A stretch of 64,000 nucleotides of DNA, taken from Novosphingobium sp. ST904. Lineage in GTDB: Bacteria; Pseudomonadota; Alphaproteobacteria; Sphingomonadales; Sphingomonadaceae. This document shows positions 26,331 to 34,310 of the stretch, piece by piece (the stretch's first letter is position 1; the number at the start of each line of letters is the position of its first letter). The notes beneath the pieces are model-generated. The model was not told where the DNA came from. It worked only from the letters and a program-made list of their open reading frames with translations, and did not search any database. The stretch is taken from the NCBI RefSeq assembly GCF_001298105.1, contig NZ_LGJH01000166.1:186001-250000 (forward strand). The letters run 5' to 3'. The position numbers and the translations under genes were made by a program.

Positions 26331-26447
26331 ATGTGGTACTTCTCATGGATTCTCGGCGTCGGCCTCGCTGTCGGCTTCGGCATCATCAACGGCGTGTGGC
26401 ACGAATTCCATACCGACCCCGCCGATGAGCAGACGGTTCTCGACTGA
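26331..26447 (+). CDS. cydX: Cytochrome bd accessory small subunit CydX (38 residues)
   Basis: A 38-residue single-helix protein starting MWYFSWILGVGLAVGFGIIN and ending in a short acidic tail (DPADEQTVLD). CydX/CbdX proteins (30-40 residues) share the M-W-Y-F-x-W-x-L-G start and stabilise the haems of the bd oxidase. It lies ten bases after cydB with GAGGAAAC just upstream. Its size puts it below ordinary ORF cut-offs, so it is easily missed. Confidence 0.93.
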   Translation: MWYFSWILGVGLAVGFGIINGVWHEFHTDPADEQTVLD

Positions 26448-26494: not shown

Positions 26495-27883
26495 TCAGGC
26501 CTTCCGCCAGCCCATCCACGAGGCAAGGGGCGGAAGAAGCCGCTTGAAACTCCCTTCCACCACAACCGCCAGCGCCAGCGAGAGCCCGAACAGCGGCATC
26601 ACCAGCGCCAGCACCACCACCAGCAAGACCAGCGCCCAACTGTGCCGCAGAGGCGCGAAGCTTGCCGGGGCGCCCAGCATCCTGCCGGGACGGCGACGCC
26701 ACCACAGCACGATGCTAGAAATGCAGAGCATCATGAGGCCGAGCAGCACCGCGAGGTTGGCAAGCTGATTGGCGAGCCCCCACCAGGCGCCCTCGTGAAT
26801 CGCGACCCCGTATCCCACCGTGCGGTCGATCCAGTGGCGGTCCGCAAAGCGCTGAATGCCGATCAGCCTGCCGCTTTCGGCCACTTCCGCGCTGTCGCGC
26901 CGGGGACGGTTCTCGGCCTGGCTGCGCACTTGCCAGGGCATGCCGGGAGCGGTGGGCGGGCTGACCTCCACCGGTGCCGCGAAGCGGAGCGTCTCCGCGC
27001 GCCAGACCACCGCATCGAGCGCTGCGGGGGCGGGGGCCATGTGCATCATCGACATGCCCCCGTGTTCGGCATGTTCGGACATCATCGCCCGCATCCCGGC
27101 ATCCGCCCGAACGCGCTCGCGGGTTTCCGCGCCGGAACCGGCCGACCAGTCCTGCTTCCCGTCAAGCGTACCGGTAATCGCCCGGACCTGCCGGAAGTAA
27201 TCTCCCCAGGCGTTGGCCCAGGGCAGGCCGGAGGCGATGAGGAACAGCGCGCCAATGGTGATCCACAGGCCGGTGACGGCGTGGATATCCCGCCAGAACA
27301 GCGCGCGGCCGCGGCGCAGGCGAGGATAGAGCACACCGGCCAGCCGTCCCCCGCTCTGGCGCGGCCACCACAGGAACAGGCCGGTCAGCAGCATGACGAT
27401 CGTCCAGCAGGCTGCGGTCTCGACAAGGGCCGATCCCCGGTCGCCCGCCAGAAGCTCGCCGTGGAGGCGGAACACCACGCGCATGAAGCGGCTTTCTTCG
27501 GCGGCCCGGTGCAGCACCTCGCCGGTCCGGGGATGGACCCAGACCCGCACGTCCTCCCCGTTCCGGCCGACCAGCACTTCCACCGCATCTCCGGGCGCTT
27601 TCGGCAGGACGTACTTGTGCAGGATCGAACCGGGCACCGCCGAGACGGCGCTGGCGGCAATGGCTTCGGGGACGAGGCGCGGTCCGGCCGGGTTGGCGAG
27701 ATTGCGATAGGGGGCGTAGAGCAGCCCTTCGATCTGCGGCTTGAACAAATAGATCCCGCCCGTCACCGATAGCCACAGCACCAGCGGCACGCAGAGCAGC
27801 CCCGCGTAGAAATGCCAGCGCCAGACCGCGCGATACCACCGCTCCCTGCGCGGCGTCGGGAGAACCTCGGTCACAGCTTCCAC
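26495..27883 (-). CDS. PepSY-associated TM protein with His/Met-rich loop
   Basis: A 462-residue inner-membrane protein of the PepSY_TM family. It has an N-terminal helix with WRWHFYAGLLCVPLVLWLSV, a periplasmic PepSY stretch, VVFRLHGELLAGDRGS, a second pair of helices with HAVTGLWITIGALFLIASGL, and C-terminal helices with a cytoplasmic WWRRRPGR. A periplasmic segment near residue 275 reads SEHAEHGGMSMMHM, a His/Met cluster of the kind that binds copper. Relatives sit beside siderophore or metal TonB receptors, some acting as ferric-siderophore reductases. It overlaps the 3' end of the receptor gene by 13 bases, so the two are probably co-translated. Metal identity is inference. Confidence 0.82.
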   Translation of the reverse strand: MEAVTEVLPTPRRERWYRAVWRWHFYAGLLCVPLVLWLSVTGGIYLFKPQIEGLLYAPYRNLANPAGPRLVPEAIAASAVSAVPGSILHKYVLPKAPGDAVEVLVGRNGEDVRVWVHPRTGEVLHRAAEESRFMRVVFRLHGELLAGDRGSALVETAACWTIVMLLTGLFLWWPRQSGGRLAGVLYPRLRRGRALFWRDIHAVTGLWITIGALFLIASGLPWANAWGDYFRQVRAITGTLDGKQDWSAGSGAETRERVRADAGMRAMMSEHAEHGGMSMMHMAPAPAALDAVVWRAETLRFAAPVEVSPPTAPGMPWQVRSQAENRPRRDSAEVAESGRLIGIQRFADRHWIDRTVGYGVAIHEGAWWGLANQLANLAVLLGLMMLCISSIVLWWRRRPGRMLGAPASFAPLRHSWALVLLVVVLALVMPLFGLSLALAVVVEGSFKRLLPPLASWMGWRKA

Positions 27884-30162
27884 CCCGCTTCGACGAGGAA
27901 GCTGCGCTGGGGATAGGGATGGTAGACCCAGGCCCGGTCATTGGTGATGTTGTCCACGCCCGCGCTCAGCCGAAGCTGCTCGGTCACGTCCCAGTTCACT
28001 TTCGCATCGAGGGCGAAGAGTTCGGAGGTGTAGCCGTAAGTGTCCCCTCGCTGGAGGCCGAACAGGTCGGTGTTGGGGCGGCTGGCATAGCGCACGCCGA
28101 TCGCGATCATAACCGGCGGGATCACCCGGTACCGCACGTTGCCGTTGAGCCGCCAGCGAGGGATGCGCGGGAACTGCACGCCTTCGGCGGCGGGGGCGCT
28201 GTCGTTCCGCAGGGTGACGGAATCGATCCATGCCGCGTTCGCATCGAGGTCCAGCCCCGGCAGCAGCACATCGCGGGCTTCGGCGATCAGTTCGAAGCCA
28301 TACTGGCGCGTCAGGTCGATGTTCTTGAAGCTGGAGGTCGTCACCCCGTTCTGGTTGAATCCGGTGAACGAGAAGATCGTGTTCCTGACCTTTTGCCAGA
28401 ACGCCGATCCGGTGAGCTTCACTTTGCCGAAATCGTGGGCAAGCAGGAGGTTGGCATCGGTCGAGCGTTCGGGCTTCAGATTCGGGTCGAAGCTGTTGCC
28501 GTCGAAATTGCCGTTACCATCGAGGCTGCCCTGGAACAGTTCGCCCACGGTGGGAAAACGCGTGGCCCTGGCGAGGCTCAGTTGCAGGCGGGTAGCGGCG
28601 TCGATGGCCCATTCGGCCGAGGCCTTGGGCTGAAAGCCCCGGGCATGGCGGCTGGCATAGCGGTTGGTGACCGGCTGGCCGCTGGTGCCGATCCGGCCAA
28701 GCCCGCCATCGAAAGCGCGCCAGTCCTCGAAGCGGGCTCCCAAGGTCAGCGTCACCGCGTCAACCGGCATGCGCAATTCGGCCCATGCGGCGAGGTTGCG
28801 GGTCTTGCCGAAGGTCCGGCTGGCGAAAGTGCCCCCGGCATCGCTGCGCCAGTTGGTCAGCGTGTAAGTCGCAAGGTCGGTGCGGTAGAGGTTGGCGCTG
28901 CCGCCGCCAGCCAGTTCCAGTTCGCCGAGCCTTGCCGTCAGCGCGGCCTCGCCGGTGTACCAGTCGGTTGGCCCCTGACGCGCCAGCGTGCCGGCACCGT
29001 TGGCCTCGCCCGCCGCATAGCCCTTGGATGTAAATGCGTCGGACCGCAGGATCTGGTAGGTAGAGGCGCTCGCCTGCACCGTCACCGCATCGGACAGCGG
29101 GATGGAGAACCTGAGCCCCGCCAACAGTTCGTCGCGGATGGTGCGGGACCGGTTGGCGCCGCTGGCGGTGTAGGTCTTCCCGTCGATGGAGACGAGACCG
29201 TCGCAGACGGCATGGCCTGAACTGTCTTGCAGATAGCAGTCCGGCGCGGTCTGGCTGTCCAGATTGTGCCAGTAGGCGAGCAGCAGTTCGCCGGTGGCGC
29301 CGGACGTGCCGTCATAGCCCAGCCGCAGTTTGGCCTGGTCCTGCGTGATCGCCGCCGGGCTTTGCGCCGCGAAAATGGGGTTGCTGGCGGTGCCGGGTGC
29401 GTTCGCCATGTGCTGGCCGGGGTCGACGATCGCGCCGGTGACGGGCGTGCCGCCGGTCGCCACCGATGGCGTGAGCCCGTAGAACATCTGCGGGTGGCCG
29501 TCGTTGCGGAAGTGGCGGCCCGAGAGCCGCACGGACCACGGCCCGTTTTCCTGCCGGAACCCCATGCCGGCTTCGGCGGAATAGCCTCGGTAGGTCTCGT
29601 GGGTGCCATATTGGTCATAAGCCTGGCTAAGGCCCTGAACCGTTGCGAAAGCCTCGGTTTTTTCAGGCGAGCGGGTGGTGATGTTCACCACGCCGCCCAT
29701 CGAATTGCCGGCATAGCGGGCGGAATAGGGGCCGTAGACGACGTCGAACTGGCTCACTTCGCCCGGGCCGACAACACCCCACTTGGGCGAATAGGCGAAC
29801 GAATTGCCGAGGAAGTTGGACACCGTGAAACCGTCCACCATCACCAATGTGCGGGCGCTTTGGGTCGAATGGGTGCCGCGAAAGCCGGGAACGCCGTTGG
29901 AATCGCCCGCGTAGCGTTTGCGAACGAAAAAGTCGGGGGCATATTTCATCAGGTCTTCGACGTTCTGGGCGTTGACGCCCGCGAACTGTTCGTCGCCAAG
30001 GCTGACCGAGAGGCCGCGCGCGTCGAGGCTGATCGGTACATTGCGCTGGCCGACGACGAGGATGGAATCTCCGGGGGCTTCCCCGGCGGCTTCTCCCGCC
30101 AATGCGGGGACAGAACAGAAGGCAAGCGGAGCCGCGCCGAGCGCGAGCAGGAATCGGGACAT
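27871..30162 (-). CDS. TonB-dependent outer-membrane receptor
   Basis: A 763-residue receptor. A signal peptide ends near ALAGEA, followed by a TonB-box-like ILVVGQRN, a plug domain (VPGFRGTHSTQSARTLVMVD; YSARYAGNSMGGVVNITTRS) and a long beta-barrel ending RSFLVEAGWKL with a terminal aromatic-like beta strand. Such receptors import siderophores, cobalamin, haem, metals or glycans using the TonB-ExbBD complex, encoded here at 42008-44635. Neighbours are a PepSY protein (overlapping) and a DUF2946 protein, a pairing seen with copper or siderophore receptors. The plug does not clearly match the OprC/NosA copper type, so the ligand is left open. Confidence 0.93.
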   Translation of the reverse strand: MSRFLLALGAAPLAFCSVPALAGEAAGEAPGDSILVVGQRNVPISLDARGLSVSLGDEQFAGVNAQNVEDLMKYAPDFFVRKRYAGDSNGVPGFRGTHSTQSARTLVMVDGFTVSNFLGNSFAYSPKWGVVGPGEVSQFDVVYGPYSARYAGNSMGGVVNITTRSPEKTEAFATVQGLSQAYDQYGTHETYRGYSAEAGMGFRQENGPWSVRLSGRHFRNDGHPQMFYGLTPSVATGGTPVTGAIVDPGQHMANAPGTASNPIFAAQSPAAITQDQAKLRLGYDGTSGATGELLLAYWHNLDSQTAPDCYLQDSSGHAVCDGLVSIDGKTYTASGANRSRTIRDELLAGLRFSIPLSDAVTVQASASTYQILRSDAFTSKGYAAGEANGAGTLARQGPTDWYTGEAALTARLGELELAGGGSANLYRTDLATYTLTNWRSDAGGTFASRTFGKTRNLAAWAELRMPVDAVTLTLGARFEDWRAFDGGLGRIGTSGQPVTNRYASRHARGFQPKASAEWAIDAATRLQLSLARATRFPTVGELFQGSLDGNGNFDGNSFDPNLKPERSTDANLLLAHDFGKVKLTGSAFWQKVRNTIFSFTGFNQNGVTTSSFKNIDLTRQYGFELIAEARDVLLPGLDLDANAAWIDSVTLRNDSAPAAEGVQFPRIPRWRLNGNVRYRVIPPVMIAIGVRYASRPNTDLFGLQRGDTYGYTSELFALDAKVNWDVTEQLRLSAGVDNITNDRAWVYHPYPQRSFLVEAGWKL

Positions 30163-30295
30163 CGTGGATATTCACCTGATCGGGAAGCGCTGCCTTGCGG
30201 CGGCAAGCGCGTCCATGTGCGAGGTGTCCCCGGGAAAGCGGGCGGCACCTGCATGAAATGCCGCGGGCACAAGGGCTTGCGGCATGGCAACGGGA

Positions 30296-30742
30296 TCAGG
30301 CGAGCGCGGGCGGTCCTCGCAAGGGTGGGCGAATTCGGGGGGCGGCAGCGCGCAGCACCAGCGGATCGCGCAGGATGGCGGCCACGAAAACGTGGAGCAG
30401 CGCCGCGACCAGCAGCAAGGCTATCGGCCCGCCGAGCGCGGCGGCCGAATGCGACGAGAAGGCGCAGGGATGGTCCATCGTCTTGCCGGCGGCGTCGTGT
30501 CCGCCGCTTCCGGCCTTGAGCTCGATCTGGATGACCACCTTCGAGCCTGCCGGAGCGGAGCCGGAGCACAATTCCACCACCAGCGCGCCGCCCTGGGAGG
30601 AGGGCATGTAGCCGGCCGGCACGAAGACCTTCAGGCACAGCGCGGCCGCCAGCAGCAGCGCTGCCAAGCCGGGACGAGCCCGGAAGAAATGCCGAAGAGT
30701 GCCCACGAACAGCCGTCTAACCCCAATCCTGCCGCTCGTCAT
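30296..30742 (-). CDS. DUF2946-like membrane protein
   Basis: A 148-residue protein with two hydrophobic helices (ARPGLAALLLAAALCLKVFV at about residues 27-46 and GPIALLLVAALLHVFVAAIL near the C-terminus). Between them lies a loop with two cysteines and several histidines, including GGHDAAGKTMDHPCAFSSHS. This layout (helix, VPAGYMP, Cys/His loop, helix) fits DUF2946, whose genes commonly neighbour TonB-dependent receptors thought to handle copper. Function is unproven. The frame opens at a GTG at 30760, but the ATG at 30742 gives the better N-terminus. It precedes the receptor gene on the same strand. Confidence 0.7.
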   Translation of the reverse strand: MTSGRIGVRRLFVGTLRHFFRARPGLAALLLAAALCLKVFVPAGYMPSSQGGALVVELCSGSAPAGSKVVIQIELKAGSGGHDAAGKTMDHPCAFSSHSAAALGGPIALLLVAALLHVFVAAILRDPLVLRAAAPRIRPPLRGPPALA

Positions 30743-30755
30743 CAGGCGAAAATGT

Positions 30756-30772
30756 CCCACCCTGCAGGTGGG
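30756..30772 (-). terminator. Small hairpin, possible weak terminator
   Basis: CCCACC (30756-30761) and GGTGGG (30767-30772) flank a 5-base loop. On the minus strand the stem is followed by ACATTTTCG. It lies between the secreted-protein gene and the DUF2946 gene and could attenuate read-through; the stem is short. Confidence 0.3.
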
Positions 30773-30794
30773 CGGGGCATTGCCGCCGGGACGA

Positions 30795-31388
30795 TCAGTC
30801 CACGACGAGGAAGTAGCTGGCCTGGCTTTCGCCGCTGTTGCGCACTTCGATCACATATCGCTGCGTGAAGATCGGAACCCACCGGCAGGCCTGCCTTGCG
30901 GTTTCGGACACGCAGACCTGCTTGCGATCGGCATCGACGACCCGCAGGCTCAGCGGTGCGCCGCCCGGAGAGGAAAGGGCGATGCTGGCCTTGCGGCCGG
31001 AAAGGAAGACCTGCTGGAAGCTTTCGCTCTTGCCGGGCCGAACCTGGCCGGAGCGATAGCCCGGACCGAGCGGGCTGCCGCGCAGTGGAACCACCGCCCG
31101 ATCGGGAAGGAGCGCGCGCCATGCCGGAACGGGGTCCGGCCCGTTCCAGTCTTCGAGCGGGCGGGCACCGGACCTGTCGATGATGCGCAGGGCATCGGAA
31201 AGCGCATTTTGGTCCGCCCAGCCCTGGGCGTCCTGCGCAGCGGCGAGGGCGGTGGCCACGCGCTCTCCCCGTCCTTCTGCGGGCGCTGCCATGCTTGCCT
31301 GCGCGGAAGCCGGTCCGGGAAGGAGCACGGCAAGGAGGAACGCGATGAGCGCGGCGCCCTTCGGGGCTTTATGGGTGAGGGCGATCAT
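30795..31388 (-). CDS. Secreted protein of unknown function downstream of a sensor kinase
   Basis: A 197-residue protein with a signal peptide (KGAALIAFLLAVLLPGPASA, cleavage near residue 28). The mature part has an alpha-helical N-terminal half and a beta-rich C-terminal half (SFQQVFLSGRKASIALSSPG, QRYVIEVRNSGESQASYFLV). The latter resembles a small jelly-roll or pre-peptidase-like beta domain, with two cysteines (KQVCVSET, QACRWVP) that could form a disulfide. No known family is recognised. The ATG at 31388 is ten bases after the kinase stop, so it is part of the regulator-kinase operon and may be a periplasmic partner of the sensor. Confidence 0.72.
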   Translation of the reverse strand: MIALTHKAPKGAALIAFLLAVLLPGPASAQASMAAPAEGRGERVATALAAAQDAQGWADQNALSDALRIIDRSGARPLEDWNGPDPVPAWRALLPDRAVVPLRGSPLGPGYRSGQVRPGKSESFQQVFLSGRKASIALSSPGGAPLSLRVVDADRKQVCVSETARQACRWVPIFTQRYVIEVRNSGESQASYFLVVD

Positions 31389-31398
31389 CGTCTCTGTT

Positions 31399-32765
31399 CT
31401 ATTTCTTCGACTCGGGGGCAATCAGGAAGCAGGCACCCTTTTCCGAAGGTATGAGCGCGATTTCAAGATGATGCCGCTCGGCGATGGCACGGCACAGGGC
31501 AAGGCCCAGGCCGGCTCCTTCCGCACCGCCCCCGGCAGCCCCATGGTTGCCGGCCCGGCTGAACTTGTCGAAGATCCGCTCCCGGTCGCCTTCGGGCACG
31601 CCGGGGCCATCGTCGCAGACGGTCAGTCTTGGCCCCATTGCCAGTTCGAGGCGCACGGTTCCCCCCAGCGGCACGAACTTGAACGCGTTGTCGAGCAAAT
31701 TGGTGATGAGGCGGGTGAGCTGCATCTCCTCCCCCTCGATGATGACCCCGGGCGTGATCGCCAGCTCCAGCCGATGGCCGGAATCTTCGGCACTGTCGGC
31801 ATAGAGTTCGCCCAGCCGCTCGGCGAGCAGACTCAGGTCGACGGGAGCAAGACCGTGGCGGTCGCCGCGCCGGGCCTGGCTGGCGGCGATGTCCAGCAGC
31901 GACTCCAGCATGCGGATGATGCCTCGGATTTCCAGCCGGGCATCGACGATGCGCGAGGCGATCTCCCCATCGGGCGTGGCGGCCAGCGCCTTCACCAGCC
32001 GGTTGTCGAGATGCATCAGCGGAGTGCGCATCTCGTGTGCCACCTGATCCGTGGTTTCGCGCTGGGCGCTGGCAAGGCGGCGCAGGCGGGCAAGGGCTTC
32101 GCCGGAATGGCGGGTAAGCTCGTCGATCTCGTCGCGATCCTTGGAATCCCTGGCAAGCTGGGTCAGCGCATCGTCGTCGGGATGGCGGAAGGCGGCGTTG
32201 ATGCGCCCGATCCGTCCCGCCAGCCGCTGTGCCGCGAGCCAGCCGACGAGCGCTACGGCGCCGACCGCCAGCAGGCCCCCGGTCAGGAAGGCAAAGGCCA
32301 CCTGCCGGAGCAGCAGCCCAAGATCGCGGTATTCATGCGCGACCAACAGGCGCAGGTCGGGGCCGAGCTGGGTCGCGCGGGCAAAGGCGCGCACGCCATC
32401 GGGCAGCTCGACGTCGCCGGTTTCCGAAAGGCTGGCGTGAAGACCGGGCCAGCTTCTCAGATCCCCCGCCAGTGGGCGGCCCTTGGCATCGGCAAGCAGA
32501 TAGTGGGCCGGATTGGCATCGCGCGGCTGAAGCGCGAGGCGATCGTTGATGCGGTCGGATAGCTCGACCGTGCCGCCGCTGCGTAGATGTCCACCATGCC
32601 GGCCAGATCGACATCGACCGCGCGTTCGAGAGCCAGCGCATTGGTCCGCTGGATCGTGGCGTTCGTCAGCAGCCAGAGCCCGAAGGTAATGAGCGCGGCA
32701 ATCAGGATCGCCCAGGCCACGATCTGCGCGAAGATGGACCTGCGGATATCGACGACGGCGGCCAT
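31399..32765 (-). CDS. Sensor histidine kinase, frameshifted near 32580
   Basis: A membrane sensor kinase partnered with the upstream OmpR-type regulator. From the ATG at 32765 one frame gives a first TM (IVAWAILIAALITFGLWLLT) and a periplasmic start to MVDIYA. The next frame then resumes with SGGTVELSDRINDRLALQP and carries the second TM (AFLTGGLLAVGAVALVGWLA), HAMP, the phospho-acceptor region VAHEMRTPLMHLDNRL, N-box ITNLLDNAFKFV and G-boxes DDGPGVPEG and GAGLGLALC. Restoring one base near 32579-32581 gives about 455 residues, a normal size. Start and stop are seven and ten bases from the neighbouring genes, so this is an intact-looking operon. Confidence 0.87.
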
Positions 32766-32772
32766 GCCCGCC

Positions 32773-33459
32773 CTACCGGCCGTCCAGCAGGCGGTAGCCG
32801 GAGCCCCAGATCGTTTCCAGCGCAGGGAGATCGAAGCCGTCCTCCAGCTTGCGGCGAAGGCGGCCGATGTTGACGTCCACCACATTGGTCTGCGGATCGA
32901 AATTCATTTTCCACACGTCTCGCAGCAGCATTTCGCGGGTGAGGATTTCGCCGGCGTTTTCCATGAAGTAGCGGAAAAGCTCGAACTCCTTGGGGCTGAG
33001 CGCGAGGTGGCGGTTGTAGCGAAAGGCGGTGCGGGCCTTCACATGGCACTCGAACGCGCCGTAGAGGATGACCGCGCTGTGTTCGCGTCCGGAAGCGCGG
33101 CGATGGAGGGCGCGCAGCCGGGCGAGCAGTTCCTCTGCCTCGAACGGCTTGGCCAGATAGTCGTCAGCGCCGCCGTCCAGTCCTTCCGCGCGGTCCGTGG
33201 TGCGCCCCAGCGCCGAAAGCATGAGCACCGGCGTGCCGATCCCGCTTTCACGCAGGCGCGACAGGATGGTCAGCCCGTCGAGATCGGGCAACATGCGATC
33301 AAGGATGATGACGTCGAAACGCTCGACACCGGCCAGCTTGAGCCCTTCCTGGCCGCTGGCCGCCCAGACCAGCGCGATGCCCGACTGGTCGGCCAGTTCG
33401 CGCACTTGCTGGGCGGCGCGGGCGTCGTCTTCGATGTAGAGGGTTTTCAGGCCGCTCAT
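32773..33459 (-). CDS. OmpR/PhoB-family response regulator
   Basis: A 228-residue two-domain regulator. The receiver has the acidic pair in TLYIEDDARA, phospho-acceptor Asp in DVIILDRMLPDLDG (about residue 50), LMLSALG and the conserved Lys of DYLAKPFE. The C-terminal winged helix includes LSPKEFELFRYFMENAGEIL and NVVDVNIGRLRRKLE, ending GSGYRLL. I chose the ATG at 33459, as family members begin just before the first receiver strand. It leads an apparent operon with the kinase and the secreted protein. The signal is unknown; location next to a metal-type uptake locus is suggestive. Confidence 0.93.
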   Translation of the reverse strand: MSGLKTLYIEDDARAAQQVRELADQSGIALVWAASGQEGLKLAGVERFDVIILDRMLPDLDGLTILSRLRESGIGTPVLMLSALGRTTDRAEGLDGGADDYLAKPFEAEELLARLRALHRRASGREHSAVILYGAFECHVKARTAFRYNRHLALSPKEFELFRYFMENAGEILTREMLLRDVWKMNFDPQTNVVDVNIGRLRRKLEDGFDLPALETIWGSGYRLLDGR

Positions 33460-33539
33460 GGGCAATGGTTCGCCTTCGCGCATGCCAATCGGGAGGTTTC
33501 CCGGCCGGCATGGTTTTCGATCTTGCGACGGATAGAGGA

Positions 33540-34310
33540 TCAGCGCGCCGGCGGGGCTGCGGCCGAGGCATTCTCGGGCAGGCCGCCAAGCTGCGTGACC
33601 AGCTTGGTATAGGCATCGAGATAGGCCAGCACGATGATCTGGCCGATCTGGGTGTTCTGGTAGCCGCCGCCGCCGGCTGCGCCGAACGTGCCGCCGAAGA
33701 AGCCGCCGCCACCGCCGCCGAAGCTGATGTCGGACTTGCGGGCATAACCCTCGGTCAGCGCTTCCTCGACCGTGGTGCGCGAATTGACGATGGAGAGCGT
33801 GACGTTCGCCTCGCCTTTCTTGACGTTGAGGCCGCCGGCGATCGAGCCGAAGCCGCGCCCGAACAGGCCGCCTACGCCGCCAAGGGCCGCGCCAAGACCG
33901 CCGCCGCCGGAATTGTTGTTGGTGGAGACGATGTCCGGCTGGAGGAAGTAATCCGCTGCCTTGATCTGGCCCTTGCCGATGTTGGAGCCCTTTTGCAGCT
34001 CACCCTGATCGGCAAGCGCGCGTTCCATTGCGCTGCTCTGGAGCGAGCGGCCGCGATTGACCAGCGTGAAGCAGCCGGACCTCTGCACGAATACGCGCAG
34101 GATCGCCTCGGGACTGCCGAGGCTGAATTCGCGCCACCACTGGTTATCCGGCTCGACGATGGAAACGGTGCCGAGATTCTTGCGGCACACCGGGATTTCC
34201 TGAGTGCCCTTGTCCTGAATCTTGCGGGCGGAGGACTTGTCTTCGGCAAATGCCGAGGGTGAGCCCGTCATGACGGCAAGCGCGGCCAGCGCGCAGGCGA
34301 TCTTCTTCAT
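33540..34310 (-). CDS. CsgG/HfaB-like protein with Gly-rich insertions, lacking a lipobox
   Basis: A 256-residue exported protein. After a signal peptide (ALAALAVMTGSPSAFA) it follows the CsgG-like pattern: EFSLGSPEAILRVFVQRSGCFTLVNRGRSLQ, then ADYFLQPDIVS, TLSIVNSRTTVEEAL and GQIIVLAYLDAYTKLV. CsgG proteins form outer-membrane pores for curli or anchor holdfast (HfaB). This copy is odd in two ways. It has two Gly/Phe-rich segments (about residues 134-165 and 200-220), and it has no visible lipobox cysteine at the signal cleavage site. No curlin-like gene is nearby. It may be a periplasmic or outer-membrane relative with another task. Confidence 0.78.
   Translation of the reverse strand: MKKIACALAALAVMTGSPSAFAEDKSSARKIQDKGTQEIPVCRKNLGTVSIVEPDNQWWREFSLGSPEAILRVFVQRSGCFTLVNRGRSLQSSAMERALADQGELQKGSNIGKGQIKAADYFLQPDIVSTNNNSGGGGLGAALGGVGGLFGRGFGSIAGGLNVKKGEANVTLSIVNSRTTVEEALTEGYARKSDISFGGGGGGFFGGTFGAAGGGGYQNTQIGQIIVLAYLDAYTKLVTQLGGLPENASAAAPPAR

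Follow-up and report, generated by a model that had tools for sequence, protein, structure and literature searches.

We examined a stretch of 64,000 nucleotides (nt) from Novosphingobium sp. ST904 (positions 186,001 to 250,000 of contig NZ_LGJH01000166.1; referred to below as the window), which carries at 26495-33459 six genes that an earlier note, made from the sequence alone, had read as a single metal-related locus. All six genes were found on the minus strand and in the order described there, and we distinguish two modules among them: module A, consisting of a response regulator, a histidine kinase and a 197-residue secreted protein (SEC197), and module B, consisting of a DUF2946-like open reading frame (ORF), a TonB-dependent receptor and a PepSY_TM protein. 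On balance, we favour the reading that module B is a self-contained metal-uptake operon under a nascent-chain switch. By analogy with known systems, the most likely role of the DUF2946-like ORF is that of a leader arrest peptide, a relative of Bordetella CruR; the small protein that it encodes probably stalls the very ribosome that makes it, and a hairpin at the ORF's stop codon seems to decide whether the genes for the receptor and the membrane reductase get made. This arrest peptide, not the neighbouring kinase, is the likely regulator of the receptor, and the outer-membrane receptor and membrane reductase probably serve copper uptake, again by analogy. We identified the following features in module B.

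30713..30742, minus: promoter-like element (TGAC ... TAG) directly preceding the leader, assigned to module B and recognised by its conserved pattern
30296..30706, minus: DUF2946-like leader ORF, 136 amino acids (aa) from GTG, proposed arrest peptide; placed by a start-codon landmark and a sub-threshold DUF2946 match
30455..30466, minus: CAFS codons, at the place of the CruR CxxC, judged by spacing to xxPP
30308..30319, minus: RGPP-type motif of the leader, proposed site of arrest, from the sequence and the C-termini of relatives
30294..30303, minus: 5' arm of the hairpin, containing the leader TGA stop; 10-base-pair (bp) pairing with 30172-30181, one pair being G-U
30163..30295, minus: intergenic region, 133 nt, from the sequence
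30172..30181, minus: 3' arm of the hairpin, containing the receptor Shine-Dalgarno (SD) sequence; covaries with the stop arm, with which its pairing probability is 0.99 in the window copy
27871..30162, minus: TonB-dependent receptor, 763 aa, plug and barrel; model with a predicted local distance difference test (pLDDT) score of 74.8 and a TonB-dependent transporter (TBDT) fold
26495..27874, minus: PepSY_TM protein, 459 aa from GTG, overlapping the receptor stop; PepSY_TM 218.6 bits
27062..27073, minus: HAEH codons of the PepSY loop, possible metal ligands

Proposed arrest motif, cysteines and promoter-like element of the leader

We compared the leader with its relatives in loci that were made unique by sequence, although near-identical genomes, such as L129 and L130, both stay in some counts. 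The window leader has the C-terminus RGPPALA. Among 75 distinct leaders, the corresponding ends are RGPP in 38, QGPP in 14, RAPP in nine, QAPP in seven, HAPP in one and other forms of xxPP in six, with a C-terminal [RQH][GA]PP in 69/75 and three residues after the motif in 69/75. In excerpts of PMC10987492, R, Q and H are given as the first residues of the RQH arrest family, and a QAPP peptide arrests in both E. coli and B. subtilis translation systems; excerpts of PMC12992588 describe RGPP as the motif with the most stable arrest and, in many phyla, as the tetrapeptide avoided most strongly, and place the first proline of the CruR arrest in the P-site.

The cysteine-led site CxxX lies 45 residues from xxPP in 69 of the 75 leaders, and at least two cysteines were present in 73/73 distinct leaders, the two conserved ones being those of CAFS and of an upstream LCSG. 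In a comparison set of the best 30 DUF2946 loci, we found CxxC in 29, at a spacing of 43-47, the remaining one being unreadable in the frame taken. The start codon was located 29 residues ahead of a PxGxM landmark in 71 of 73 loci distinct by sequence, a count from which L059, L126 and L138 were set aside as their starts were unreadable. The identification as DUF2946, which the earlier note had given, scores under the Pfam cut-off: the match covers profile positions 3-117 of 117 and reaches 19.0 bits against 23.7 (E=0.0025). The PF11162 profile gave no match at E<=0.001 anywhere in the leader's own genome, and none of the 89 genomes with a PF11162 match in a wider search was of the same family.

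The sequence TGAC-N18-TA[AG] was found before the leader in 52/73 distinct loci, a pattern that was formed on the same loci on which it was counted, compared with a mean of 0.3 and a maximum of 3 in 500 mononucleotide shuffles. The spacer measures 18 in 52/52 cases though 15-19 was permitted, and the element lies 9-13 nt ahead of the start codon in 51/52. Shine-Dalgarno sites before the leader are not in excess (5/73, versus 8.1 in shuffled sequences). From its pattern, the element reads as a promoter that would give an almost leaderless messenger RNA (mRNA). The earlier note had taken the six genes for a single unit, and had named in advance independent promoters for the parts as the observation that would speak against this; the occurrence of a promoter-like element before the DUF2946-like ORF, in the proportion of loci given above, argues against such a unit.

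Pairing of the leader stop codon with the receptor Shine-Dalgarno sequence

In 48 distinct loci, the mean longest Watson-Crick helix between the leader stop region and the receptor SD region was 6.21, versus 5.24 with swapped partners, a value reached by 0/10000 permutations; this test is less selected than the anchored tests below, and the receptor starts of L097 and L145 were misassigned in it, which brings the observed mean down. Among the 31 loci in which receptor identity is at least 70%, the mean helix was 7.03 versus 6.41 when swapped (1/10000).

Anchored stop/SD pairing with compensatory changes was identified in 32/47 distinct loci, the window included. Across 28 unique arm pairs, positions -4 to +2 are paired in 27-28 of 28, which is partly fixed by the anchor and the stop codon, and position +3 is A-U in 15, U-A in five and unpaired in eight. 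Further double changes were found at -3 (U-A in L110 and L114), at -4 (L114) and at -2 (L110), the anchors of these two loci having been added since their pairing had been seen. In total, 235 of 280 positions form Watson-Crick pairs, versus 218.9 with swapped partners, and 0/20000 swaps reach the native value, a permutation result that holds for Watson-Crick pairs. Arms slid by 1-3 bases pair in 49-96 of 224 cells with G-U counted, versus 198 in register by Watson-Crick pairs, and changed SD sequences (AGAAGG and AGGAAAA) are matched by altered last codons of the leader. Partition function calculations pair the SD with the stop arm at a mean probability of 0.90 over 33 loci. In Sphingomonas loci with receptor identity of at least 70%, the intergenic region measures 31-34 nt and the hairpin 9-12 bp in 8/9, the intergenic region of L101 being 57 nt.

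Judging from the sequences compared, the hairpin belongs to the receptor group of the window and to some further groups, and is not shared by all leaders, since it was found in only four of 17 non-orthologous leader-receptor loci and four of 30 high-scoring DUF2946 loci. In a crude search of the latter 30, a helix of at least 9 bp was present in four, L159 with 10 bp at an SD-like AGGAAG, and L160, L162 and L167, which come from one genus and have an uncertain receptor start, with 9 bp; the other 26 had helices of at most 7 bp or none. The hairpin as a general DUF2946 trait is thus not supported.

We additionally observed pairing elsewhere. The leader of L159, a high-scoring DUF2946 protein from another class of the phylum, stands before a long ORF with its 10-bp stop/SD pairing, possibly by convergence. 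Leaders of other receptors, in L066, L067 and L089, have stop/SD helices of 8-10 bp with a different sequence. In the more distant receptor clade (L108, L109, L124, L153 and L154), the partner of the stop region GATCTGACAG in an inverted repeat is not the SD but a CTGACAGATC in the middle of the intergenic region.

The receptor, the PepSY protein and the metal

The plug and barrel of the TonB receptor and the PepSY_TM domain were assigned by Pfam, as the earlier note had proposed for these genes. The receptor model matched OprC, and likewise FecA, PqqU and PhuR, and we rejected these structural matches as evidence, as they reflect the general TBDT fold; sequence searches of solved structures reached no CrtA chain.

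The PepSY_TM protein contains the four heme-ligand histidines, as in the FoxB/CrpH reductases: H21, H138, H198 and H360 are invariant in 19/19 proteins and aligned with histidines of the solved structure 7abw (profile E=4.4e-7), which we take to be FoxB. The SEHAEHGGMSMMHM stretch to which the earlier note had drawn attention is indeed present in this protein, and the histidines of its HxxH (H268 and H271) are invariant in 19/19 aligned PepSY proteins.

In one relative, L087, the leader heads genes for PCuAC, SCO1, a receptor and a PepSY protein. Elsewhere in the sub-family, leaders stand before different receptors, and some of these are followed by PepSY_TM or TonB genes. Copper is our best guess for the metal, by analogy with CruR and from the L087 gene set and the PepSY histidines, and we are cautious over it because CxxC is absent from the leaders. 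The siderophore role that had been suggested alongside it finds no pointer among these observations.

Modules A and B are separable

The earlier note had described small gaps or overlaps throughout the locus. This applies to the PepSY gene, which overlaps the receptor by 4 nt (GTGA), but not to the 133 nt from the DUF2946-like ORF to the receptor, nor to the 88 nt from its likely GTG start (30706) to the gene for the secreted protein. Upstream of module B, and on its far side, we identified the following features.

33540..34310, minus: CsgG/LpoB-like exported protein, 5' of module A and perhaps a member of it (Pfam CsgG 37.7 bits)
32773..33483, minus: response regulator of the OmpR/CopR type (Pfam Response_reg and Trans_reg_C)
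32457..32765, minus: N-terminal part of the histidine kinase, in one frame, with an early stop; joined with the C-terminal part in G205
31399..32394, minus: C-terminal part of the histidine kinase, in the other frame (HATPase_c 75 bits); one-base difference from G205
30795..31388, minus: SEC197, 197-aa secreted protein with a signal-peptide-like start, helices and a C-terminal beta-sandwich (low-confidence model)
26331-26447, plus: CydX-like ORF of 38 residues, directly after cydAB, from the sequence

We searched 149 genomes of the genus, and matched the leader ORF in 127 and SEC197 in 43. Adjacency was counted by listed coordinates, weaker leader matches not all being listed, and on this count SEC197 stands next to the DUF2946-like ORF in 3/43 genomes among the matches listed (G000, G205 and G275). 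Of 60 loci read in total, module B was present beside 2/20 SEC197 loci, and stands without module A in 13/13 loci (L052-L064) within the stretch fetched; both modules were found together in one further lineage (L099/L132). Kinase matches near L098, L101-L103, L106 and L121 are weak and at the edge of the locus. The order leader, receptor and PepSY was retained in 36/37 loci found via the receptor, the exception having a receptor of 29% identity, and these relatives are named Novosphingobium, Sphingomonas, Sphingobium and a few others.

Each module can do without the other: the modules mostly occur apart, and cydAB is found beside either alone or both. What had been read as one unit of six genes falls into two separable modules, with the neighbouring two-component system outside the module B operon, and we rejected one six-gene operon on the separation of the modules across genus genomes and loci read. 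The earlier view of a metal-uptake cassette is a good reading for the last three genes, while the two-component system and the 197-aa protein form a separate conserved module.

Within module A, the response regulator and HATPase_c domains were recovered by Pfam, in agreement with the earlier reading. The best NCBIfam model for the regulator is cztR_silR_copR, with a score under that model's cut-off. Genes for both regulator and kinase were found, but the kinase (31399-32765, minus) is split over two frames: the window is one base short compared with G205, a genome of the same species in which the kinase is intact in one frame, which represents either a real mutation or an assembly error. For SEC197, we found no Pfam or NCBIfam family at E<=1. 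Its structure prediction, which the earlier note had called for, was run and gave a model of low confidence (pLDDT 62) with no structure match at E<=0.001, and we rejected its structural matches as evidence. The regulator and kinase adjoin SEC197 in 20/20 loci read, the regulator match being partial or broken in L042 and L046, and a CsgG-like match was found upstream of the regulator in 13/20 module A loci, three of these being weak (27-33% identity).

Regulator, kinase and SEC197, in the window (30795-34310, minus) and in L034-L051, thus constitute a conserved module in 20/20 loci read. The regulator is matched in part in L042 and in two pieces in L046, and module A may be decaying in some lineages.

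The earlier note had placed the locus directly behind cytochrome bd. The cydAB genes, with the small ORF behind them that we presume to be CydX, are on the plus strand and convergent with the locus, not in the same direction. In the window they converge on the whole locus; in L041 and L042 they face module A without module B, and in L052/L093 module B without module A. With L032 included, cydAB adjoins module A alone, module B alone, or both, as though the cyd locus served as a landing site for these cassettes.

Proposed mechanism and alternative explanations

We propose that transcription from the promoter before the leader would begin at the leader ORF or very close to it. By analogy with CruR, the ribosome on the leader would stall at RGPP, with the first proline in the P-site and the second in the A-site, and under shortage of the metal, which is most likely copper, this ribosome would cover the last leader codons to about the stop. 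RGPP lies three codons ahead of the stop, so that a ribosome of usual footprint stalled on it would end at about the stop codon and sit on the 5' arm. Once that arm was covered, the receptor SD would be free, and the receptor and the overlapping PepSY_TM reductase could be translated. Copper bound by the nascent peptide, through the cysteines of CAFS and LCSG, would relieve the stall and let the ribosome leave, and with the ribosome gone the hairpin would form and the receptor would be shut off.

The sequences compared show the ORF, the positions and spacing of its motifs, the promoter-like element, the covarying stop/SD pairing and the gene order of this proposal. Stalling, copper release and the direction of the response we infer by analogy, the direction (stall at low copper, release by copper) being taken from CruR. 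Sphingomonads are a bacterial group rich in TonB receptors. For them, we tentatively suggest, as an extension that may well prove wrong, a family of CxxC-free, two-cysteine arrest peptides with their own start-adjacent promoters, acting as separate metal- or thiol-gated switches for a large variety of outer-membrane receptors; in the window's group, an RGPP stall would open the stop/SD hairpin, as a translational on-switch at metal starvation, and not through Rho.

Several observations weigh against the proposed switch. CxxC was found in 0/73 distinct leaders, and CruR needs CxxC for copper control, so that the ligand could differ. The first residue of the arrest motif is not R in 27/75 leaders, and 6/75 fall outside [RQH][GA]PP; in excerpts of PMC10987492, RAPP-like stretches from E. 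coli and B. subtilis proteins mostly gave no arrest in vitro. Anchored stop/SD pairing is missing from 15/47 loci, all with receptors of 50-67% identity. The SD anchors used for covariation and the partition function were picked with the pairing already in view and predetermine part of the 3' arm, and partner swapping keeps phylogeny in, such that relatedness remains in the controls. In the 17 non-orthologous loci, from which 9/26 loci without a clear receptor start had been left out, the four helices of at least 8 bp compare with 0.9 expected, and 61/5000 permutations reach the summed length. When the end of the leader was blocked to mimic a stalled ribosome, SD pairing fell from 0.92 to only 0.63 on average, and was higher in L097. 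A stretch with more C than G extends from about 30500, in the second half of the leader, into the receptor start, which would allow Rho termination.

Rho-dependent termination in the intergenic region, as in CruR, could act with the same leader peptide and make the hairpin secondary. Its precedent lies in bicyclomycin and in-vitro data on CruR in excerpts of PMC9426467, and the window's intergenic region, at 133 nt, is compatible with it, as is the C>G stretch; but Rho termination has no need of stop/SD covariation, and the short intergenic regions in 8/9 Sphingomonas loci leave little room for termination before the receptor, and we consider this explanation unlikely. Somewhat less doubtful, though still improbable, is that the leader responds to a metal other than copper, to heme or, during export, to the redox state of its two cysteines, in which case the receptor's cargo would not be copper. 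The loss of CxxC in 73/73 leaders with two spaced cysteines kept, the several distinct receptors, some with TonB genes, behind leaders of the sub-family, and the general TBDTs that are the closest solved folds of the receptor would all agree with this, whereas the CruR spacing kept in the leader, the PCuAC and SCO1 genes behind one leader, and a PepSY_TM partner as in cruR-crtA-crpH favour copper.

The stop/SD complementarity might arise as a by-product, given GC-rich last codons and a strong Shine-Dalgarno sequence, as TGA and CAGG, unchanged across most loci, can pair on their own, and swapped partners still pair at 218.9/280. Slid partners, however, lose most of the pairing (49-96/224 cells, G-U counted, versus 198 in register by Watson-Crick pairs), native pairing is above swapped pairing in every one of 20000 swaps, and different SD sequences are met by changed last codons, making a by-product quite improbable. 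Very improbable, in our view, is a single unit of six genes in which the two-component system senses the metal and drives the receptor. Three lineages, namely the window species, Novosphingobium PhB57 and the metagenome-assembled genome BIN1, speak for it with genes that are contiguous and point the same way, but module B is not beside 18/20 module A loci read, nor module A beside any of the 13 module B loci L052-L064 in the stretch fetched; moreover, module B has its own promoter-like element, and the kinase is frameshifted in the window assembly.

Comparison with known systems

The cruR-crtA(bfrG)-crpH locus of Bordetella pertussis has a leader ORF, a TonB receptor and a PepSY_TM gene in the same order as module B. 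In excerpts of PMC9426467, CruR likewise has a C-terminal RxPP three residues from its end, with 45 residues from the cysteine site to RxPP. The window leader differs in being without CxxC, in having RGPP for RAPP, and in scoring under the DUF2946 cut-off, and we do not file it as CruR because CxxC was tested and is absent. It differs further in its promoter-like element, which is close to the start codon with no SD, whereas the CruR start site is reported 45 bp upstream; and the window group has a covarying stop/SD hairpin, whereas CruR is reported, in excerpts of PMC9426467, to use Rho termination.

CutF-cutO of Rhodobacter capsulatus also has an exported, proline-ended leader, and a hairpin that masks the SD of the next gene, according to excerpts of PMC9973294. 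In contrast, the same excerpts give CutF a CxxxC, a copper oxidase as its target, and activation by copper; the target in the window is a receptor, and the expected sign of the response is opposite. SecM-secA and the Sec arrest peptides of RAPP type (ApdA, ApdP and the RQH family) arrest at RAGP- or RAPP-like motifs, and SecM and uDF_RQH_Enterobacterales unmask a downstream SD, in excerpts of PMC10987492 and PMC10951233; these peptides precede sec or yidC genes, whereas the window leader precedes uptake genes and has two conserved cysteines.

Small ORFs ending in RGPP or RAPP upstream of TonB-related genes have been noted statistically as a class, in excerpts of PMC12992588, in which such arrest peptides are counted before many receptor genes and the mechanism from stall to expression is left open; the term 'stem-loop' does not occur in its main text, and the excerpts contain no stop/SD hairpin. 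In the open-licence PMC literature, we found neither the hairpin described above nor a sphingomonad leader of this kind, although CutF-like lists in supplements may include some. New here, on the strength of the compared sequences, is the covarying pairing of the leader stop-codon region with the receptor Shine-Dalgarno sequence. The locus would give a concrete and mutable answer to the question of how a stall leads to expression, in two ten-base arms of which one contains the leader stop codon, and would add a divergent sensor without the CruR cysteine pair, together with a tractable candidate copper-uptake operon. By analogy, the leader looks to work like CruR, CutF and SecM combined.

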